A stretch of DNA of 11,763 nt from Desulfobulbaceae bacterium (lineage in GTDB: Bacteria > Desulfobacterota > Desulfobulbia > Desulfobulbales > Desulfocapsaceae): assembly GCA_030599175.1 (NCBI GenBank), contig JAUVON010000049.1:1-11763 (forward strand), read 5' to 3'. Below, one piece after another: positions 2,882 to 11,763 of the stretch (position 1 is the stretch's first letter; every line of letters begins with the position of its first letter). The position numbers and the translations under genes were made by a program. The notes beneath the pieces were generated by a model. It saw only the letters and a list, made by a program, of their open reading frames with translations. It was not told the origin of the DNA and searched no databases.

Positions 2882-4813
2882 TCATACCCTCTTTGGGGGT
2901 TGTTTTAAATAGAGAACACCAAGCGGCGGCAGGGTCAGGGTTATCGAATATGCTCGCCCATGCCTTGGCACTTTCCTCGCTTCAATCGGGCCGTCGTTGC
3001 CGATGTTCCAGCCCTCGTAATAGCTTGACTGGGAATTGAAAATCTCCTCATATGTCCCCGGATATGGCACACCAACCAGGTACTCGTGTCGTGTGTCGTC
3101 AGAAAAATTGCACAGTACATATATGGTCTCATCCGGCTTATCGCTCTTGCGCATAAAGCTGATGCAGTTATGTTGATAATCACCGTCATCAATCCATTCG
3201 AATCCTTCTCGTTTTTCATCATACTGATGCAGTGCGCGTTCATCACGGTAGATACGGTTTAGATCACTCAGCATCTTTTGCAATTTTATGTGCAGAGGAA
3301 AATCGAGAAGATGCCAGTCAAGGCTCTGCTCAAAATTCCATTCGGCAAACTGGGCGATCTCGCAACCCATAAAGAGAAGTTTCTTCCCGGGATGCGCCAT
3401 CATATGAGCGTAAAGGGCACGAAGGTTGGCAAATTTCTGATTGATATCCCCGGGCATTTTGTTGATGAGAGAGCCTTTCATATGAACCACTTCATCATGA
3501 CTGAGCGGAAGCATGAAGTTTTCATCAAAAGCGTACCACATGCTGAAGGTGAGCTGATGGTGATGATGCTGACGGTAAATCGGATCATAGCTCATATATT
3601 TAAGTGAGTCGTGCATCCAGCCCATATTCCATTTAAAGCCAAAGCCCAGACCTCCTATGGAGGTCGGGCGTGTCACCATCGGCCAGGCAGTCGACTCTTC
3701 AGCAACCATCAGGATATCTGGAAACTCACGGTAGACACTCTCGTTGAGGTTACGTAAAAAGGCAACAGCCTCAAGGTTCTCATCGCCGCCGAATTCATTC
3801 GGAATCCATTCGCCCTCTTTCCTCGCGTAATTCAAATAGAGCATTGAAGCAACAGCATCAACACGGATGCCGTCAATATGATACTTCTCCAGCCAGAACA
3901 TTGCTGAGCTGATAAGAAAAGACTGCACCTCATTGCGGCCATAATTGAAAATAATGGATCCCCACTCCGGATGAAATCCCTGTCTCGGGTCATCATGTTC
4001 ATACAGCGCTGTACCGTCAAAATTGATCAGGCCGTGCATGTCGACAGCAAAATGTGACGGTACCCAGTCCATAATGACACCAATACCGTTTTGATGCATA
4101 ATATCGATCAGGTACATCAGGTCTTCGGGCTCTCCGAAACGTGCCGTTGCCGAGAAGTAACCCACCACCTGGTACCCCCATGATCCAAAGAACGGATATT
4201 CGGTCAACGGCATGAATTCGACATGGGTATAGTTCATCATTTTAAGATAATCGACAAGCTCATGGGCAAGTTCACGATAGGTCAGATACCGGTTGTTATC
4301 CTCTACCTTCAGGCGCCATGAACCAAGATGAACTTCATAGACACTGATGGGAGCATCGTGGTTATTGTGTTTATGGCGAATGTCCAGCCATTCGTTATCC
4401 TGCCACTTATATTCATCAAGGCTCCATATACGTGATGCGGAATTTGGTGGTTTTTCACTGTAGAAGGCAAAGGGATCACTTTTGTCATGAATTATTTCAT
4501 GGTGTCTGGAGACGATATGGTACTTATAGGTAAGCCCCTGCTCCACTTCCTCTATAAAACCTTCCCAGATGCCGGAATCATCGTCCCGCAGCCGGAGCGG
4601 ATGACTGCCGGTGTCGTAATCATTGAAATCACCACGGACACTCACGCGCTCAGCATTAGGTGCCCAGACCGCAAAACATACGCCTTTTACCTTTTTGCGG
4701 GTCATCATATGAGAACCGAGTTTATCGTATAACTTGGTGTGATTTCCCTGCTTGAAAAGATAGATATCCATATCGCTCAACAAAGAAACATCATAGTGAA
4801 TAGCGTGTGTCAT
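2882..4813 (-). CDS. glgB: 1,4-alpha-glucan (glycogen) branching enzyme
   Basis: This 643-residue GH13 enzyme makes alpha-1,6 branches in glycogen by cutting an alpha-1,4 chain and transferring it. Order of domains: N-terminal CBM48-like beta-sandwich (about 40-120, with FAVWAPNAERVSVRGDFN), catalytic barrel (about 155-505), C-terminal beta-domain (about 540-640). Visible GH13 regions: MDWVPSHF (248-255), DGIRVDAV with the nucleophile D319, the acid/base Glu in VAEEST (E372 or E373), and LSHDEVVH with D440 as transition-state stabiliser. Length is within the usual range for bacterial GlgB. The start is supported by AGGAG in ACAGGAGCC a few bases upstream of ATG (4813). It is the last gene of the malQ-glgA-glgB series but is separated from glgA by 186 bp that hold a large palindrome, so its expression may be set apart from the upstream pair. 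Confidence 0.96.
   Translation of the reverse strand: MTHAIHYDVSLLSDMDIYLFKQGNHTKLYDKLGSHMMTRKKVKGVCFAVWAPNAERVSVRGDFNDYDTGSHPLRLRDDDSGIWEGFIEEVEQGLTYKYHIVSRHHEIIHDKSDPFAFYSEKPPNSASRIWSLDEYKWQDNEWLDIRHKHNNHDAPISVYEVHLGSWRLKVEDNNRYLTYRELAHELVDYLKMMNYTHVEFMPLTEYPFFGSWGYQVVGYFSATARFGEPEDLMYLIDIMHQNGIGVIMDWVPSHFAVDMHGLINFDGTALYEHDDPRQGFHPEWGSIIFNYGRNEVQSFLISSAMFWLEKYHIDGIRVDAVASMLYLNYARKEGEWIPNEFGGDENLEAVAFLRNLNESVYREFPDILMVAEESTAWPMVTRPTSIGGLGFGFKWNMGWMHDSLKYMSYDPIYRQHHHHQLTFSMWYAFDENFMLPLSHDEVVHMKGSLINKMPGDINQKFANLRALYAHMMAHPGKKLLFMGCEIAQFAEWNFEQSLDWHLLDFPLHIKLQKMLSDLNRIYRDERALHQYDEKREGFEWIDDGDYQHNCISFMRKSDKPDETIYVLCNFSDDTRHEYLVGVPYPGTYEEIFNSQSSYYEGWNIGNDGPIEARKVPRHGRAYSITLTLPPLGVLYLKQPPKRV
2886..2906 (+). 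terminator. Possible weak terminator for the GDPD-PLA2 pair
   Basis: Just past the + strand pair, ACCCTC (2886-2891) can pair with GGGGGT (2895-2900) across a TTT loop. This gives six pairs including one G-T, and TGTTTTAAA follows. It lies inside the 3' end of the convergent glgB gene, so part of the signal may be coding coincidence. Confidence 0.3.
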
Positions 4814-4829
4814 AATGGCTCCTGTTTAT

Positions 4830-4970
4830 ATGAAAGTCATGTGTAATTTGGGAAGAAAGGGATTCGGAGGAGTGTTGACACAACAGGTAAGCGACCCTGC
4901 GAGACTCCGATCCACAGCCTGCGAGGACGTTTGGCAACACTCCTCCGAATCCCGGTTACATTACTTTCAT
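4830..4970. repeat. Large interrupted palindrome between glgA and glgB
   Basis: Two perfect 19-nt inverted arms lie at 4859-4877 (starting GGGATTCGGAGG) and 4935-4953, separated by 57 bp. The symmetry continues outward imperfectly: ATGAAAGTCATG at 4830-4841 matches the reverse complement of 4956-4970 (ATTACTTTCAT side) with one substitution and a 2-nt indel. The centre holds a direct repeat CCTGCGAG at 4896-4903 and 4918-4925. As RNA in the glg direction it would form a long stem. No good U-tract follows, so it is not a standard terminator. It could be a dispersed intergenic repeat (MITE- or REP-like) or an RNA-processing or attenuation element within the glycogen operon. Confidence 0.75.
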
Positions 4971-4999
4971 GTTTTGTTGTGAAATTCATTTCATGGGCG

Positions 5000-6484
5000 T
5001 TAGCGGCGAATCCTGAGACGGCCGTCGATTAAGCGGTGGTAGAGGTATTCATAGCCCTTTGCTGCCACATCCCAGTCAAAACGCTTTTTCATGCCATTTC
5101 GACGCAGTTGTTCAAAACCTGTACTGTCATGATACCAGGTGTCAACTGCCCATTGTACTGTACCGCTGAGTGCCTCCGGCGTTGCATCGTAAAACTTGAA
5201 GCCGGTGCCGCTTTTAGTTTCTGCATCATAGTTGTCAATGGTGTCATCCAACCCTCCGGTTGCCCTTACAATCGGCACGGTTCCATACCGCAGACTGTAA
5301 ATCTGGTTCAAACCGCAGGGTTCAAACAGTGACGGCATCAAAAACAGGTCACTTCCTGCTTCAATCCGGTGAGCCAGATCGTTTCGATAACCGACGAACA
5401 AACCAAATTTTTCAGGATATCTGCCACTTATATCACTGAAGAAATGTTCTGCCCACCTTTCCCCGGTGCCCAGCAGGACCATCTGGATATTAAGCCCCAT
5501 CAGGTGCCATATGGCCGAGGCCAGCAGGCCGATACCTTTTTGTTCGGCAAAACGGCCGACAAGGCCTATCAACGGCACATCACTGCGTTCGGGGAGATTG
5601 AACGCTTTTTGCAGTTCAGCTTTACATATCGCTTTCCCTGAGAGGTCATCACTGTCAAACTGTCTGGGAATAAAATTGTCCACCTCCGGACTCCACTCCG
5701 TATAATCAACCCCATTCAATATACCGTGAAGTTTTGAAGCATGGGCATCAATGAGACTGTCAAGTCCCCAGCCAAATTCAGGAGTGCGGATCTCCTGGGC
5801 ATATTTTTTGCTGACGGCATTGATGGCATCAGCATGAACAATGCCTCCTTTGAGCAGATTGACGCCGTCATACTCTTCCAACTCACTGGCATTAAAGTGT
5901 TCCCAGCCTATATCGAGTACATCCATGGCACCTTTATAAAACTTTCCCTGGTGCTGCAGGTTATGAATGGTCAACAGCGAACCTGTATTTTCAAAATCAG
6001 GATCAGAACCATAGGTCGAGTTCAGCAAGATTGGCATAGCCGCAGTATGCCAGTCATTGGCATGAATAACATCAGGTCTGAAATGCAATTTTTTAGCAAG
6101 CTGCATGGCCGCTTTGGAGAGAAAGATAAAACGGTTGTCGTTGTCTCCGTACCCTTCTCCATCTTCATCATAAAGCCCTTTTCGCCCAAAGAATCCCTCG
6201 TGTTCTATAAAATAGATCGGCACGTCACTCCCCGGGAGCACCCCCACATAAACGGAGGACCATACTTCACCCATACTTCCCATATGCACCCCGAGGGAGC
6301 CCTCAAGAGGTTTAAGGCTATAATATTCTATGTCGACAATGTAATAACGCGGCATCACCACCCGCACGTCATGACCCAGCTGACGAAGTGCCTTTGGCAA
6401 TGCCCCGATTACATCAGCGAGACCTCCGCTTTTTGCAAAAGGTACAACTTCGGAAGCTGCAATTAAAATATTGAGTCTTTCCAT
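5000..6484 (-). CDS. glgA: Glycogen (starch) synthase, ADP-glucose type
   Basis: This 494-residue GT5 glycosyltransferase extends alpha-1,4-glucan chains from ADP-glucose. The N-terminal Rossmann domain opens with ILIAASEVVPFAKSGGLAD; K18 in the KSGGL motif (KTGGL in many homologues) is the nucleotide-sugar phosphate contact. HANDWHTA is at 141-148 and TIHNLQHQG at 172-180. In the C-terminal domain GRFAEQKG (310-317) supplies the Arg/Lys pair. FEPCGLNQIYSLRYG (387-401) carries the conserved Glu (E388), followed by PIVRATGGLDDTI (404-416). Length is typical. GT5 rather than GT4 is clear from the N-terminal motif. The start lies 12 bp after the malQ stop with AGAGCC as a modest ribosome-binding site, so malQ and glgA are almost certainly cotranscribed. 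Confidence 0.96.
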   Translation of the reverse strand: MERLNILIAASEVVPFAKSGGLADVIGALPKALRQLGHDVRVVMPRYYIVDIEYYSLKPLEGSLGVHMGSMGEVWSSVYVGVLPGSDVPIYFIEHEGFFGRKGLYDEDGEGYGDNDNRFIFLSKAAMQLAKKLHFRPDVIHANDWHTAAMPILLNSTYGSDPDFENTGSLLTIHNLQHQGKFYKGAMDVLDIGWEHFNASELEEYDGVNLLKGGIVHADAINAVSKKYAQEIRTPEFGWGLDSLIDAHASKLHGILNGVDYTEWSPEVDNFIPRQFDSDDLSGKAICKAELQKAFNLPERSDVPLIGLVGRFAEQKGIGLLASAIWHLMGLNIQMVLLGTGERWAEHFFSDISGRYPEKFGLFVGYRNDLAHRIEAGSDLFLMPSLFEPCGLNQIYSLRYGTVPIVRATGGLDDTIDNYDAETKSGTGFKFYDATPEALSGTVQWAVDTWYHDSTGFEQLRRNGMKKRFDWDVAAKGYEYLYHRLIDGRLRIRR

Positions 6485-6496
6485 AATCAGGCTCTG

Positions 6497-8056
6497 TTAC
6501 TGTAATTTATCACTTTTGATATCAGGTTGTTTTAAGTCCGTATCTTTCTTCGCAGCTATTCTGTCATAGAGCTGTGTCATTTTCAATAAATCATCTGCGA
6601 TATCTGAAGAAAGATCCCTCTTTAAAAAACGGTATTGCCAGTTGCCGCTGGAGGTGCCCGGCAGGTTCATACGTGCTTCATTGCCACATCCGAGAAGATC
6701 CTGCAGGGGAAAAATTGCCAGAAAGGCAACGGATGAGAGGGCCGCTCTAATCATATCTCTATGAATAACTCTGCCGTCGGTGTTAAGATAGCGTCTAGTA
6801 AAATCCTTTACCTCTTTCGGCTGTTTATCCCACCAGCCACGAACAGTATCGTTATCGTGGGTACCTGTATAGATAACCTGATTATAGTGATGATTATGGG
6901 GCAGAAATAATGAAGAATTATTACCCCCTTCCACCCCCTCAAAACCAAACTGCAGGATAGCCATTCCCGGATACCCGAGCTCATCAAGCATCTCTGTCAC
7001 ATCTTCGGTAATGACTCCTAAATCTTCAGCAATAATTGGAGCACCGCTGCCAAGATCACGTTCTATGGCATGAAAAAGTCCGGCGCCTGGTCCTTTTTTC
7101 CAGGTACCTTTCACAGCCGTTTCTTCCTTGGCGGGGATCTCCCAGTAGCTGGCAAAGCCTCTGAAGTGATCTATGCGGATAAAATCAAACATAAATGAGA
7201 GCAGCTCAAACCGTTTGACCCAGAAGGAATAGCCCTCATTCTTCAGCTGCTGCCAGTCAAAAAGCGGATTGCCCCAGCGCTGTCCTGTTTCACTGAAATA
7301 ATCGGGAGGCACACCGGCAACGACGGTGGGTTCGCCTTTTTTATCAAGATAAAACCATTCCTGATGACTCCAGACATCACTGGAATCATGGGCAACAAAG
7401 AGAGGAATATCACCAATGATCCTGATTCCCTGAGAGGTTGCATAACTGTGCAGCTTCTGCCATTGATCAAAGAAGAGAAATTGAAAAAACCGATGTCGCT
7501 CTATCTCATTCTCAAGCTTTTGAGACCATGAACTGAGCGCTTCAGGGCTACGCTGAACCAGTTCCTCAGGCCAGCTTGTCCAGGGTCTGCTCTGGTGAAA
7601 TCCCTTAATTGCTGCAAACAGACAAAAATCCTTCAGCCAATGCGCATGTTTCTTACAAAACCGGCTGTACCGTTGTACAACAGCGGCAGGTTTTTCAGTT
7701 AAAAAATTACTATGAGCTTTTTTGAGGAGTTCGTACTTGAAGGGAATCACACTGCCAAAATCTACATGATCATGGGGGAATTCCGGTTTTCCAATATCCT
7801 CACTTTGCAATAGTCCCTCTTCCAGTAAGAGATCGGGACTGATAAGCATGGGGTTGCCGGCAAATGCGGAAAGTGCTTGATAGGGAGAATCGCCATATCC
7901 GGTCGGTCCCAGTGGCAGCATCTGCCAGATGCTTTGCCCGGAAGCACTGAGAAAATCGATAAATTCATATGCACCGGGGCCAAAGTCACCGATTCCCCAT
8001 TCAGATGGTAGTGAGGTCGGGTGCAGTAAGATACCGCTGACTCGTTGTTTAATCAT
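6497..8056 (-). CDS. malQ: 4-alpha-glucanotransferase (amylomaltase)
   Basis: This 519-residue GH77 enzyme transfers alpha-1,4-glucan segments between maltodextrins. The opening RVSGILLHPTSLPSEWGIGD is characteristic of the short, plant D-enzyme-like GH77 type, and GYGDSPYQ follows at 53-60. Catalytic regions: GDIPLFVAHDSSDVW (215-229), RIDHFRGF with nucleophile D296, IAEDLGVI with E344 as acid/base, and GTHDNDT with D401. The 3'-end tail (about 500-519) is Lys/Asp-rich and nonconserved. A plausible ribosome-binding site, AAAGGCG, lies about 8 nt upstream of the ATG. It heads the alpha-glucan cluster, immediately before glgA. In such clusters MalQ trims or recycles linear glucans during glycogen turnover. 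The 119 bp between it and the glycine-zipper gene show no clear promoter or terminator that I can support. Confidence 0.95.
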   Translation of the reverse strand: MIKQRVSGILLHPTSLPSEWGIGDFGPGAYEFIDFLSASGQSIWQMLPLGPTGYGDSPYQALSAFAGNPMLISPDLLLEEGLLQSEDIGKPEFPHDHVDFGSVIPFKYELLKKAHSNFLTEKPAAVVQRYSRFCKKHAHWLKDFCLFAAIKGFHQSRPWTSWPEELVQRSPEALSSWSQKLENEIERHRFFQFLFFDQWQKLHSYATSQGIRIIGDIPLFVAHDSSDVWSHQEWFYLDKKGEPTVVAGVPPDYFSETGQRWGNPLFDWQQLKNEGYSFWVKRFELLSFMFDFIRIDHFRGFASYWEIPAKEETAVKGTWKKGPGAGLFHAIERDLGSGAPIIAEDLGVITEDVTEMLDELGYPGMAILQFGFEGVEGGNNSSLFLPHNHHYNQVIYTGTHDNDTVRGWWDKQPKEVKDFTRRYLNTDGRVIHRDMIRAALSSVAFLAIFPLQDLLGCGNEARMNLPGTSSGNWQYRFLKRDLSSDIADDLLKMTQLYDRIAAKKDTDLKQPDIKSDKLQ

Positions 8057-9168: not shown

Positions 9169-9308
9169 ATTATTTCCGGCGTTAATTTGCAGTTGACCCT
9201 GGTGATGATCAGATCCTTGTCGGCATCAATTAATATGGTTTTCTAAACATTCGGCATATTATGGTGACACTATTTTGCTATCTCTCCTTTGTCAACTCAA
9301 AATCCTCT

Positions 9309-9509
9309 CTGATTACGTATGAAACTCAGCTGCTTTTCTCGTCATCCCCGCGCAGGTGTGAGATAGCGTAAACTTCGATCCAGAGGTTCTGCTCATAACT
9401 GGATCCCCGCCTGCGCGGGGATGACAACATTGAGGGATAATATTTCACCTGTGTTATCAACATGTTAAGACTATATCCACAGAATTGGCTGAGTTTCATA
9501 CGTAATCAG
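9309..9509. mobile_element. MITE-like element with 22-bp perfect terminal inverted repeats
   Basis: Positions 9309-9330 (starting CTGATTACGTATG) and 9488-9509 are perfect 22-bp inverted repeats bounding 201 bp. The 9-bp sequence AAATCCTCT occurs directly outside both ends, at 9300-9308 and 9511-9519, with a single extra G (9510) on the right. That is what a 9-bp target-site duplication would look like. The interior has no coding frame of note, so any movement would need a transposase in trans. A REP-like palindrome sits inside it. Confidence 0.75.
9341..9425. repeat. REP-like 'ATCCCCGC' inverted repeat inside the MITE-like element
   Basis: GTCATCCCCGCGCAGG (9341-9356) is a perfect 16-nt inverted copy of 9410-9425. 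The right copy is itself a compact hairpin: ATCCCCGC (9403-9410), CTGC loop, GCGGGGAT (9415-9422). Sequences of the form GTCATCCCCGCG...GCGGGGATCCAG are common intergenic palindromes in many Proteobacteria. The pairing is seen; the family resemblance is from general knowledge. Confidence 0.7.
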
Positions 9510-9519
9510 GAAATCCTCT

Positions 9520-9701
9520 GGATTCCAGCTCCAGTCAAACCAGGGTTCAGTGGACCATTGCTTTTTTTTGCAAAAAAGTTGCGTCATAGGTGTCCAAGTA
9601 GGATTGTTAAAAACCACCTGAAACACCACGCTGTTCCATTGACTTACTACCGGCTGGTAGCATAAAATTAAGTAGTGCCTTAGAAATCTCTTTCTTCTTT
9701 T
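9520..9701. other. Intergenic stretch without recognisable feature
   Basis: Short open frames exist on both strands. The - strand one is Trp-rich (around PWFDWSWNPEDF) but has no credible start or ribosome-binding site, and both run into the MITE-like repeat. It may be decayed coding sequence. I recognise no RNA gene or promoter here. The preceding 9169-9299 stretch is likewise featureless to me. Confidence 0.4.
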
Positions 9702-9769
9702 TTTATATGAAAGTCAATTTTACTCCCCAGGCAGGGAGGGATTCAGATTAGACATATTGTTCAGCGTTA

Positions 9770-9849
9770 TTGATTCATGAAAAGCCAAACTTGTCGTAAG
9801 GCAAGGACGGAAAGCTACGGGTCTATTAGATAGCCGGGCTGCCTTGGAA
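9770..9849 (+). promoter_or_regulatory. Cyclic di-GMP-I (GEMM) riboswitch
   Basis: The segment aligns by eye with the c-di-GMP-I aptamer. It has GCCAAAC (9784-9790) where the reference has GGCAAAC. A 6-bp P2 stem follows (CTTGTC 9790-9795 / GGCAAG 9800-9805) closed by a GTAA (GNRA) tetraloop. Next comes GACGGAAAGCTACGGGTCT (9806-9824), matching the conserved GACGCAAAGCCACGGGCCT, a very short P3 (TCT-ATT-AGA), and TAGCCGGGCTGCC (9831-9843), matching the conserved 3' strand. Relative to the Vibrio Vc2 aptamer, the ligand-contacting G20 and A47 correspond to G9784 and A9811. The 21-46 pair is changed from G-C to C-G, a compensatory swap. The 5' strand of P1 is not obvious. A terminator hairpin begins within the 3' strand of the aptamer, and an HD-GYP gene follows, as expected for a c-di-GMP-controlled leader. 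Confidence 0.85.
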
Positions 9850-9871
9850 AAAGGTAGCCCGGTTTTTTTTT
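9834..9871 (+). terminator. Riboswitch-linked intrinsic terminator
   Basis: CCGGGCTGCCTT (9834-9845) pairs with AAGGTAGCCCGG (9851-9862), 12 pairs with one G-T, across a GGAAA loop, followed by nine T (9863-9871). The 5' arm is also the 3' strand of the riboswitch aptamer, so the two folds exclude each other. By that geometry ligand binding should prevent termination (an ON switch). The gene start is 125 nt further downstream. Confidence 0.9.
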
Positions 9872-9996
9872 AATCTTCATTAACGTTTCCAGAGGTGTGA
9901 ATTCTTAAAACCTGATGGCGTCGTAAAACGTCCGATCTCCTTTGTTTCAAGTTTTCCTCAAAACCTCAACAAAGAAAAACGGGAGGGTTTTCTCAT
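9872..9996 (+). promoter_or_regulatory. Leader between terminator and HD-GYP gene, with ribosome-binding site
   Basis: A strong Shine-Dalgarno sequence, GGGAGGG (9981-9987), sits nine bases before the ATG at 9997 and fixes that start. The stretch around 9913-9939 (CTGATGGCGTCGTAAAACG...) resembles short repeats I associate with deltaproteobacterial intergenic regions, but I cannot confirm this from the window. Confidence 0.6.
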
Positions 9997-11217
9997 ATGA
10001 CTCTCAGAGTTGATACCAGACAAATAATCCATGCGCTCTCGGACACTCTTGACCTTGTAGGAGTTGATGACGTACAGCATGGGAAACGAGTTGCCTTTAT
10101 GGCTATGCAGTGCGGAAAGGATCTTAACTATGACTTGCCTTCCATGAGGACTCTTTATCATGCCGCCCTTCTCCATGACTGTGGCGTTTCCTCTACCAGG
10201 GTGCACCATAAACTTGTAACTGAATTAGATTGGAGAGAATCTCAACATCATTGCCTGAGGGGTGAGCAACTGCTTTCCAGTTGCCAGCTTTTTCATGATT
10301 TGCCGGCTATTATTCGCTATCACCATACCCACTATGAAAATATGCCGGCTTCAATAGAACGAGAGACAGCTCTGATGAGTAATCTCATTTATCTTGTTGA
10401 CCGGGTTGATGCCTTAATTGCCCAGCACAAAGGTGTTGATATCCTCATTGCCCGCAAAGATATCTGTCGGATAATTTCCAAATATCGTGGGACTTTTTTT
10501 GAAGAGTCCCTGGTAGACACTTTCCTGAAAATAGCAGACGGTGAAATCTTCTGGCTCTCCCTTGAACCGAGGCATATCATTACCTATTGCATGGACATGG
10601 GGCAAAAAAGTCAAAAACAGATCGTCGGTCAGGAAATAATTATGGAAGTGGCCACTATTTTTGCAGATATAGTAGATGCCAAGAGCACTTTTACTGCAGA
10701 ACATTCTCTCGGTGTAGCCCGTCTTTCACGGTATATTGGTTCTCTTCTCTGTTTATCAGGTGCAAAACAAGATATGCTGGAGGCTGCTGGCCTCCTTCAT
10801 GATCTTGGTAAGCTAATTATTCCGGATGAAATTCTTGAAAAACCTGGGCCCCTTACAGAAGAAGAAAGGGCTATCATGATGCGGCACAGCTTTGAAAGTT
10901 ATCAAATTCTTTATCGGATTGACGGTTTTGAAAAAATTGCCAGATGGGCTGCTTTTCACCATGAGACTCTCTCAGGTAAAGGGTATCCTTTTCACCTTAA
11001 CGAAGAGGGCCTTGAACTTGAAGCAAGGATTATTGCTGTTGCCGATATTTTTCAAGCACTGTCCCAGAAGCGACCATATCGTGATTCCTTACCGTCAGAA
11101 AAGATTATGTCTATTGTGAATAATATGGTCGCCGAAGGACACCTCGACCACCAACTGACTTCCCTGGTTGAAAGCCATCTTGACGAGTGCTTACGAAAAG
11201 CTACCTGTGTTGAGTGA
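9997..11217 (+). CDS. Tandem HD / HD-GYP domain phosphodiesterase
   Basis: This 406-residue soluble protein has no signal peptide or membrane segment. The N-terminal half (about 20-180) is an HD-superfamily domain that keeps likely metal ligands (H28, H60-D61 in LLHDCG, H84/H85, H109-H110, D135) but lacks a GYP motif (HHTHYENMP instead). The C-terminal half (about 212-400) is an HD-GYP domain: H236, HDLGK at 268-272, H297, HHE at 321-323, GKGYP at 327-331, and D350 in VADIFQAL followed by RPYR. Known HD-GYP enzymes hydrolyse c-di-GMP to pGpG and GMP using a di- or tri-iron/metal centre; a few prefer 3',3'-cGAMP. Canonical HHExxDGxGYP reads HHETLSGKGYP here, with Ser for the usual Asp. The gene follows a c-di-GMP-I riboswitch and terminator, so its product probably degrades the ligand that controls its own expression. 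No receiver or other sensor domain is present. Confidence 0.9.
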   Translation: MTLRVDTRQIIHALSDTLDLVGVDDVQHGKRVAFMAMQCGKDLNYDLPSMRTLYHAALLHDCGVSSTRVHHKLVTELDWRESQHHCLRGEQLLSSCQLFHDLPAIIRYHHTHYENMPASIERETALMSNLIYLVDRVDALIAQHKGVDILIARKDICRIISKYRGTFFEESLVDTFLKIADGEIFWLSLEPRHIITYCMDMGQKSQKQIVGQEIIMEVATIFADIVDAKSTFTAEHSLGVARLSRYIGSLLCLSGAKQDMLEAAGLLHDLGKLIIPDEILEKPGPLTEEERAIMMRHSFESYQILYRIDGFEKIARWAAFHHETLSGKGYPFHLNEEGLELEARIIAVADIFQALSQKRPYRDSLPSEKIMSIVNNMVAEGHLDHQLTSLVESHLDECLRKATCVE

Positions 11218-11248
11218 AGACCTGTTCAGCTACAATTTATCTTTCTGA

Positions 11249-11276
11249 CCATTTAATTGTAAGCTCAATTAAATGG
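11249..11276. terminator. Hairpin between convergent genes, possible bidirectional terminator
   Basis: CCATTTAATTG (11249-11259) and CAATTAAATGG (11266-11276) form a perfect 11-bp stem with a 6-nt loop, midway between two convergent genes. The place fits a terminator, but neither side has a T-run, so the function is uncertain. Confidence 0.4.
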
Positions 11277-11330
11277 CCAAACTGGAACCAGCCTTAAAAT
11301 ATTCCTTTCAAAGATATTCTGTTACTACAG

Positions 11331-11763
11331 TTACCGGTGGAGTCTAACAGTAGCGCTAGTCGTAATTCCTTCAGCGCTGATCTCAACTGTGTTTTTGTAG
11401 CTTCCAGGTGTGCTGCCTGCTGTAAACAGCCCATTTTGGTCAATAGTACCGCCACCGTTGATAACATCCCAGGTATAGCCAACAGTCATTGGGTTGTTGG
11501 CGGTATCATACCCCTGGGCAGTAAATTGTTGCTGGTTGTTAGTCGCTAACTTCGCAACAGTTGGAGTTATTTCTATGCGATCCAGTACCTGTGAAGGGGC
11601 ATTAGCATCAAAGAGATTACTTATGCCTGCAGAGGTCCCTCCCTGGATATAGATTTCCACGTCCGTGGCCTCAGCGTTAATTGTGACATTCCCCGACCAA
11701 GTCCCATTGCTGAAGCTGCCGGCAGTAATCGGTGTTATGGTGCCGGTGGTATCTGATAAATCG
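11331..11763 (-). CDS. Large surface/secreted protein with bacterial Ig-like repeats, C-terminal part (5' end outside window)
   Basis: The frame is open from the right edge to a TAA at 11333-11331, giving about 143 residues. The GTG at 11660 is internal, because the same frame continues coherently upstream (GTITPITAGSFSNGTWSGNV). Two repeat types are visible. The first, TITPITAGSF.NGTWSGNVTI, is a beta-rich module common in large extracellular proteins. The second, about residues 66-140, runs IEITPTVAKLATNNQQQFTA, YTWDVINGGGTIDQNGLFTA, then NTVEISAEGITTSATVRL, which has the shape of a Big-type bacterial immunoglobulin-like domain. The composition is rich in Thr, Asn, Gly and Ser, with no cysteine, as is usual for adhesins and surface-layer proteins. 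No C-terminal anchor or sorting signal is evident. The specific role cannot be told from this fragment. It converges on the HD-GYP gene. Confidence 0.75.
   Translation of the reverse strand, partial: DLSDTTGTITPITAGSFSNGTWSGNVTINAEATDVEIYIQGGTSAGISNLFDANAPSQVLDRIEITPTVAKLATNNQQQFTAQGYDTANNPMTVGYTWDVINGGGTIDQNGLFTAGSTPGSYKNTVEISAEGITTSATVRLHR

Follow-up and report, generated by a model that had tools for sequence, protein, structure and literature searches.

A GEMM-I riboswitch with a strand-sharing terminator upstream of a putative HD / HD-GYP phosphodiesterase gene in a Desulfobulbaceae bacterium

The leader of an HD / HD-GYP gene in a Desulfobulbaceae bacterium, a relative of sulfate-reducing bacteria, raises the question of whether a riboswitch for cyclic di-GMP (c-di-GMP) controls an enzyme that degrades the riboswitch's own ligand. 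The gene lies in a window (the whole stretch of DNA that was analysed, 11,763 nucleotides) that is one contig of a host genome assembly of 430 contigs and 2,909,073 bases, 86.79% complete. The aptamer, the terminator, the strand that they share, the gene and the conservation of the arrangement in one sister genome are computed features of a locus that is real and made up of parts of known kinds. The reading that we favour, with a probability of roughly 0.7, is that an HD / HD-GYP phosphodiesterase is controlled by a transcriptional ON switch, a GEMM-I riboswitch with a canonical pocket, and that the two form a self-limiting loop. The features of the locus are as follows.

9639–9668, plus strand: weak promoter-like site ahead of the leader (TTGACT-18-TAAAAT; consensus match only)
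9775–9847, plus strand: GEMM-I (c-di-GMP-I) riboswitch aptamer (RF03167, 69.8 bits; RF01051, 65.8 bits)
9832–9871, plus strand: intrinsic terminator, stem 9832–9864 and U tract 9863–9871 (hairpin scan, folding)
9981–9986, plus strand: Shine-Dalgarno sequence GGGAGG, 10 nt before the ATG (direct reading of the sequence)
9997–11217, plus strand: HD / HD-GYP protein of 406 aa, putative cyclic-dinucleotide phosphodiesterase (ORF, Pfam HD_5/HD, relative 5z7c, alignments)
10069–10401, plus strand: N-terminal HD domain without GYP (HD_5 match 10069–10338; alignments)
10660–11157, plus strand: predicted catalytic HD-GYP domain (HD_5; alignments)

The HD / HD-GYP gene stands alone, with adjoining genes oppositely oriented: upstream, the closest genes that match a family, and downstream, the ORF at 11331, are on the minus strand. 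A consensus scan found seven promoter-like sites in 9300–11763, compared with a shuffle mean of 4.1. The ribosome-binding site claimed by the first-pass annotation was read directly as GGGAGG (9981–9986) before the ATG at 9997. The stretch from the terminator to the ATG gave no indication of an extra regulatory hairpin over this site, its folds being no more stable than shuffles in two genomes (z −0.35 and −0.69), and a shorter piece of this spacer had a fold z of 0.07 against shuffles. Elsewhere in the window, the minus strand carries a row of glycogen genes at 2882–8056 (branching enzyme-like, starch/glycogen synthase and 4-alpha-glucanotransferase), and 2230–2859, beside a membrane GDPD gene, encodes a protein that has no Pfam match above the cut-off and a CCxxHD-like stretch, presumably resembling that of phospholipase A2. 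A MITE-like element at 9309–9509 has perfect 22-bp terminal inverted repeats and a 16-bp inner inverted repeat; the genome holds 57 matches to it, including the query, with near-full copies at C348 and C74 and many partial ones; about 110 bp separate the C348 copy from a further HD_5 match.

The window was scanned with cmscan at E-values up to 5, which gave a single riboswitch, plus-strand, at 9775–9847 (E 3.4e-15 with RF03167, scoring 69.8 bits where the cut-off is 59); the remaining three Rfam matches in the window were far under their cut-offs. RF01051 also matched there, with an offset of one base, and scored 65.8 bits, its cut-off being 35. This score bears out the GEMM-type aptamer that the first-pass annotation had claimed; the expected match to RF01051 was indeed above threshold, but the best Rfam family is RF03167 and not RF01051. 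All five GEMM-I aptamers of the host genome pass the RF03167 cut-off. According to the RF alignment columns, the contact bases of the aptamer are G20 (9784), A47 (9811) and C92 (9842), the closing pair of P2 is C21-G46 (9785–9810) and a GUAA tetraloop lies at 9796–9799. In the available part of PMC4744006, c-di-GMP is contacted by G20, A47 and C92 of Vc2, and in that of PMC6274999 the Geobacter cGAMP aptamer has A14 at the end of J1/2, C15-G40 in P2 and A41 in J2/3. The window thus combines the contact bases of a c-di-GMP RNA with a P2 closing pair (C21-G46) that resembles that of the cGAMP RNA. Assignment as a cGAMP (GEMM-Ib) riboswitch was rejected because position 20 (9784) is G and not A, and assignment as a GGC variant was rejected because position 47 (consensus column 37 of RF03167; 9811 here) is A and not the G of the model. 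P1 is weak, one of its three consensus pairs being flagged as non-standard, and the G at the end of P1 lies 5 nt, rather than 6, before position 20, a form (TGAAAAG) seen in four of the 125 loci compared below, among which GATAAAG is the commonest (38). Folded alone, the 73-nt aptamer did not exceed shuffles in stability (z −0.52).

The terminator at 9832–9864 has 14 pairs, including 8 G-C pairs, and a loop of 5, and is followed by nine U. When folded alone, the piece 9828–9871 reached −26.5 kcal/mol (z −5.97) and 0 of 200 shuffles were equally stable; four terminator-like sites were found in 9300–11763, where 2.1 were expected, and this one has the most pairs. The aptamer's 3' strand (the 3' side of P3, the junction and the 3' side of P1) doubles as the 5' arm of this stem, and a ligand-free fold of 9766–9882 contains the terminator but no longer P3, with P2 and some weak other pairs persisting. 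The earlier description of a terminator that takes the aptamer 3' strand as its 5' arm stands, although the stem has 14 pairs and not 12. PMC9262584, in the part available, describes the experimentally studied pilM riboswitch as an ON switch whose aptamer and terminator are mutually exclusive, and Cd1 as an OFF switch in which the two can coexist. A terminator that shares the aptamer 3' strand thus points to the ON-switch geometry described for pilM in that text.

The RF01051 model was searched against 58 genomes of the order, giving 134 matches in 34 genomes. The five loci of the host genome and 120 of the 129 from relatives, the nine weakest being omitted, were compared (125 loci; L001–L005 and L063–L182) and typed by a motif script, with a few rows uncertain, e.g. 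L074 and L174. G20 is present in 116 of the 125 loci and A47 in 123; G20, C21-G46, C22-G45 and A47 occur together in 76 loci, and G20, G21-C46, C22-G45 and A47 in 24. A cGAMP-like A at position 20 was seen in relatives at 6 of the 125 loci, with L126 and L149 the more certain calls and at least one of the six doubtful. Overlapping terminators, defined as sharing at least 4 nt with the aptamer, are present at 84 of the 122 loci with enough downstream DNA, compared with 80 of 2440 mononucleotide shuffles. They are found at 81 of 88 loci with C-G or U-G at positions 21 and 46, at 1 of 29 with G-C and at 2 of 5 with other pairs (Fisher p 2e-19, a value that ignores relatedness; the C/U-G loci represent 25 genomes and the G-C loci 18). 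The P2 closing pair is thus associated, in the sampled order, with whether or not a locus has a shared-strand terminator, which may prove of wider use, and G20 is kept in 84 of the 90 loci with C-G or U-G at this pair.

Pairing in both states was scored in 78 of these 90 loci, nine without a terminator or without a clear 3' strand being skipped and three identical rows dropped. The shared bases at columns 67, 68, 69, 71 and 72 are paired in both states in 77, 75, 77, 75 and 75 of the 78 loci, respectively, with lower values at column 70 (56/78; 57/78 for pairing in P3) and column 73 (62/78). Column 71 carries a compensated change in five loci, U-A-U replacing C-G-C. When downstream sequences were swapped among the C/U-G loci, the own downstream sequence beat the foreign median in just 56 of 88 cases, so the coevolution of the terminator arm is modest, the signal of this test being limited because the shared strand is highly conserved. 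Four further riboswitches of this type occur in the host genome. One is truncated where its contig ends; the other three have overlapping terminators and precede a five-CxxCH protein, a protein that is UspA-like by eye and a protein without a Pfam match. The five-CxxCH (multiheme cytochrome-like) protein is found behind a G20 riboswitch at L001, L137, L140 and L165, that is, in four genomes: the host, two of the same genus and one of the same family. In Geobacter, cytochromes are among the targets of cGAMP riboswitches.

The ORF at 9997–11217 encodes a protein of 406 aa with Pfam matches to HD_5 twice, HD twice and HDOD once. The tandem HD/HD-GYP gene of the first-pass annotation was thereby recovered, with two HD_5 and two HD stretches, GxGYP in the second HD stretch and an N-terminal HD domain without GYP. 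In a protein search, 8000 candidates were scored, of which 3978 reached 1e-40 and 120 were listed. Two alignments were made, one of 16 tandem proteins of the order, including 14 from L013–L030, and one of 47 proteins, in which that of the window was joined by 46 of these 120 homologs. Invariant in both alignments are the HD-GYP residues H236, H268 D269, H297 and H321 H322 E323, together with G327, G329-Y-P331, D350, R359 and R362, and, in the N-terminal HD domain, H28, H60 D61, H85, H109 H110 and D135. The retained ligands of the N-terminal domain suggest that it may also bind metal. Among five relatives in the PDB, the best is 5z7c (E 5.4e-41), deposited as '3'3'-cGAMP-specific phosphodiesterase 3', which we take to be V-cGAP3 of Vibrio cholerae, VCA0931. 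The order of an HD domain followed by an HD-GYP domain with intact metal ligands and GYP places the protein with the HD-[HD-GYP] type, a tandem family named in the reference list of PMC13090378 (source available in part), and the protein is probably a cyclic-dinucleotide phosphodiesterase. The host genome has eight HD_5 matches, two of them within this gene, so its product is one of several candidate phosphodiesterases.

For the ligand, the switching, the catalysis and the feedback, our best inference is as follows. Without ligand, the P3 3' strand and the junction/P1 strand would pair with the downstream arm to give the 14-pair terminator. Binding of c-di-GMP would hold the shared strand in the aptamer and permit read-through by RNA polymerase, upon which the phosphodiesterase would be made and c-di-GMP lowered, a negative feedback. 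The geometry resembling that of pilM, as far as the source describes it, implies that the ligand should allow read-through and that the enzyme should then lower the ligand. Such feedback had been proposed at first pass, and the GEMM-I aptamer, the shared-strand terminator (84/122 against 80/2440) and the intact HD-GYP site argue for it; with RF03167 as the best model and a cGAMP phosphodiesterase as the best solved relative, however, the statement that c-di-GMP induces its own degradation has the standing of a best inference and not of a fact.

It is conceivable, though we consider it unlikely, that the aptamer senses 3',3'-cGAMP, or cGAMP together with c-di-GMP, and that the enzyme is a cGAMP phosphodiesterase. 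As 5z7c is deposited as a cGAMP-specific enzyme, hydrolysis of cGAMP by the protein of the window is also possible; in the available part of PMC8177086, VCA0681, VCA0931 and VCA0210 of V. cholerae hydrolyse both c-di-GMP and cGAMP, and a glutamine of PmxA is linked to cGAMP specificity. The RNA offers two further points in the same direction, the P2 C-G closing pair common to the Geobacter cGAMP aptamer (C15-G40; PMC6274999, in part) and the shared-strand terminator common to pilM (PMC9262584, in part). Against this, position 20 is G here where the cGAMP aptamer, in the text available, has A14, and G20 is kept in 116 of the 125 loci. The GGDEF domains also point away from cGAMP. Of the four GGDEF matches in the host genome, two are readable through the motif, both with Asp and not the Hypr Ser, the other two being partial; the Hypr position was assumed to fall in the GHxxGD stretch. 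Six sister genomes added 62 matches, and each of the 30 read among them has Asp, so that in the genus, most of whose genomes are incomplete, all 32 domains read of 66 matches have the canonical Asp. Ser at this position is the mark of a Hypr enzyme in the accessible parts of PMC6456294 and PMC8835794, and Asp in the 32 domains read of the 66 therefore argues for c-di-GMP and against Hypr-type synthesis of cGAMP.

A different objection holds that termination is constitutive or that the aptamer is decaying, the gene being expressed mainly from an internal downstream start and without feedback. The comparison with the Desulfobulbaceae MAG S3730MH12 bears on this; it is the closest named relative found, its phosphodiesterase is 97% identical, and it keeps the riboswitch-gene arrangement with a riboswitch scoring 67.9 bits. 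Between the two genomes, 70 of 73 bases of the aptamer (96%) and 23 of 24 ungapped bases of the remaining terminator (96%, with one gap) are identical, compared with 108 of 125 in the spacer from terminator to ATG (86%) and 58 of 85 in the upstream part (68%), so conservation peaks at the switch. The two P2 changes in S3730MH12 (9801 and 9804) exchange G-U and A-U and keep the pairing. Loss of switching would be at home with the weak P1, and the 125-nt spacer, at 86% identity between the sisters, leaves room for a promoter; the consensus scan scored none in this spacer. Since no other part of the leader is as well conserved as the aptamer and the terminator, and the genome holds four more such riboswitches, three of them with overlapping terminators, we give this explanation a slim chance.

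A more elaborate proposal combines three elements: aptamers with C-G or U-G at positions 21 and 46 would be a platform from which cGAMP (GEMM-Ib) riboswitches arise by G20A, the copy in the window would sense both dinucleotides, and the HD / HD-GYP protein, with two full sets of metal ligands, would clear both. We judge the combination decidedly improbable; if it were true, one loop would limit two signals together.

A true GGC-variant riboswitch with another, unknown ligand is extremely unlikely: RF03167 gives the top Rfam score and all five aptamers of the genome exceed its cut-off, but the A at position 47 (column 37), where the model's consensus is G, is shared by the best RF03167 matches of 29/29 other genomes examined among the 89 others matching. 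These come from 198 sampled genomes of the phylum, in which RF03167 has a match in 90 and one above its cut-off in 54, and all 29 combine G20 with A47, which makes the 'GGC' label unsafe as a guide to the ligand. We assume that the letters GGC in the name of RF03167 refer to positions 20, 47 and 92. That Rfam gives this label to RNAs with a canonical pocket may be of wider use; in the available parts of the literature, c-di-GMP-I-GGC appears merely as a model name in methods.

Taking the preferred reading again, a c-di-GMP ON switch for a phosphodiesterase, its parts are rarely found side by side. An HD-GYP motif in the ORF of the fetched stretch was seen at 3 of the 125 loci, namely the window, its 97%-identical ortholog (L099) and L168, the script having found no downstream ORF at 10 of the 125, partly because of stretch or contig ends. 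At L168 (101–1573), which is from another family, an unrelated GGDEF/HD-GYP gene comes a few bases after a GEMM-I aptamer, a separate instance of a c-di-GMP turnover gene behind a riboswitch. Proteins matching that of the window at 1e-30 occur in 16 of the 58 genomes and in two of seven of the genus, six of those seven being less than 90% complete, and at 18 further loci of HD-GYP homologs (L013–L030) no GEMM was found at the gathering threshold. On present evidence, the riboswitch-phosphodiesterase loop is lineage-specific. According to the available part of PMC7266159, many GEMM-associated genes act in c-di-GMP production, degradation or signalling; with GEMM RNAs beside c-di-GMP turnover genes already reviewed there, the idea of the loop is itself not new. 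A search of the open-access literature, outside which most subscription papers lie, turned up neither an account of this locus nor a GEMM-I/HD-GYP loop that had been put to the test. With a riboswitch directly before a phosphodiesterase at so few loci, the arrangement is a compact and testable autoregulatory unit.

The locus can be set beside four known systems. It resembles the classical RF01051 RNAs (Vc2, Vc1) in its fold, its GNRA tetraloop, G20/A47/C92 and its score of 65.8 bits against a cut-off of 35, and differs from them in having C21-G46 where the classical form has G21-C46, in the terminator strand shared with the aptamer and in the weak P1. RF03167 (c-di-GMP-I-GGC) is the top-scoring model, but the RNA has A for the model's consensus G at position 47. 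The HD-[HD-GYP] phosphodiesterase 5z7c likewise has an HD domain followed by HD-GYP, with the catalytic residues kept (5.4e-41), whereas the N-terminal HD domain here keeps its HD metal ligands and that of 5z7c carries KD instead. With the pilM GEMM-Ib cGAMP riboswitch of Geobacter metallireducens, in the available account, the locus shares the ON-switch geometry of mutually exclusive aptamer and terminator, and its C-G closing pair of P2 is that of the crystallised Geobacter cGAMP aptamer; position 20, however, is G here and not A, so that c-di-GMP is the expected ligand, unlike in pilM, and the target is a phosphodiesterase here and pili there.
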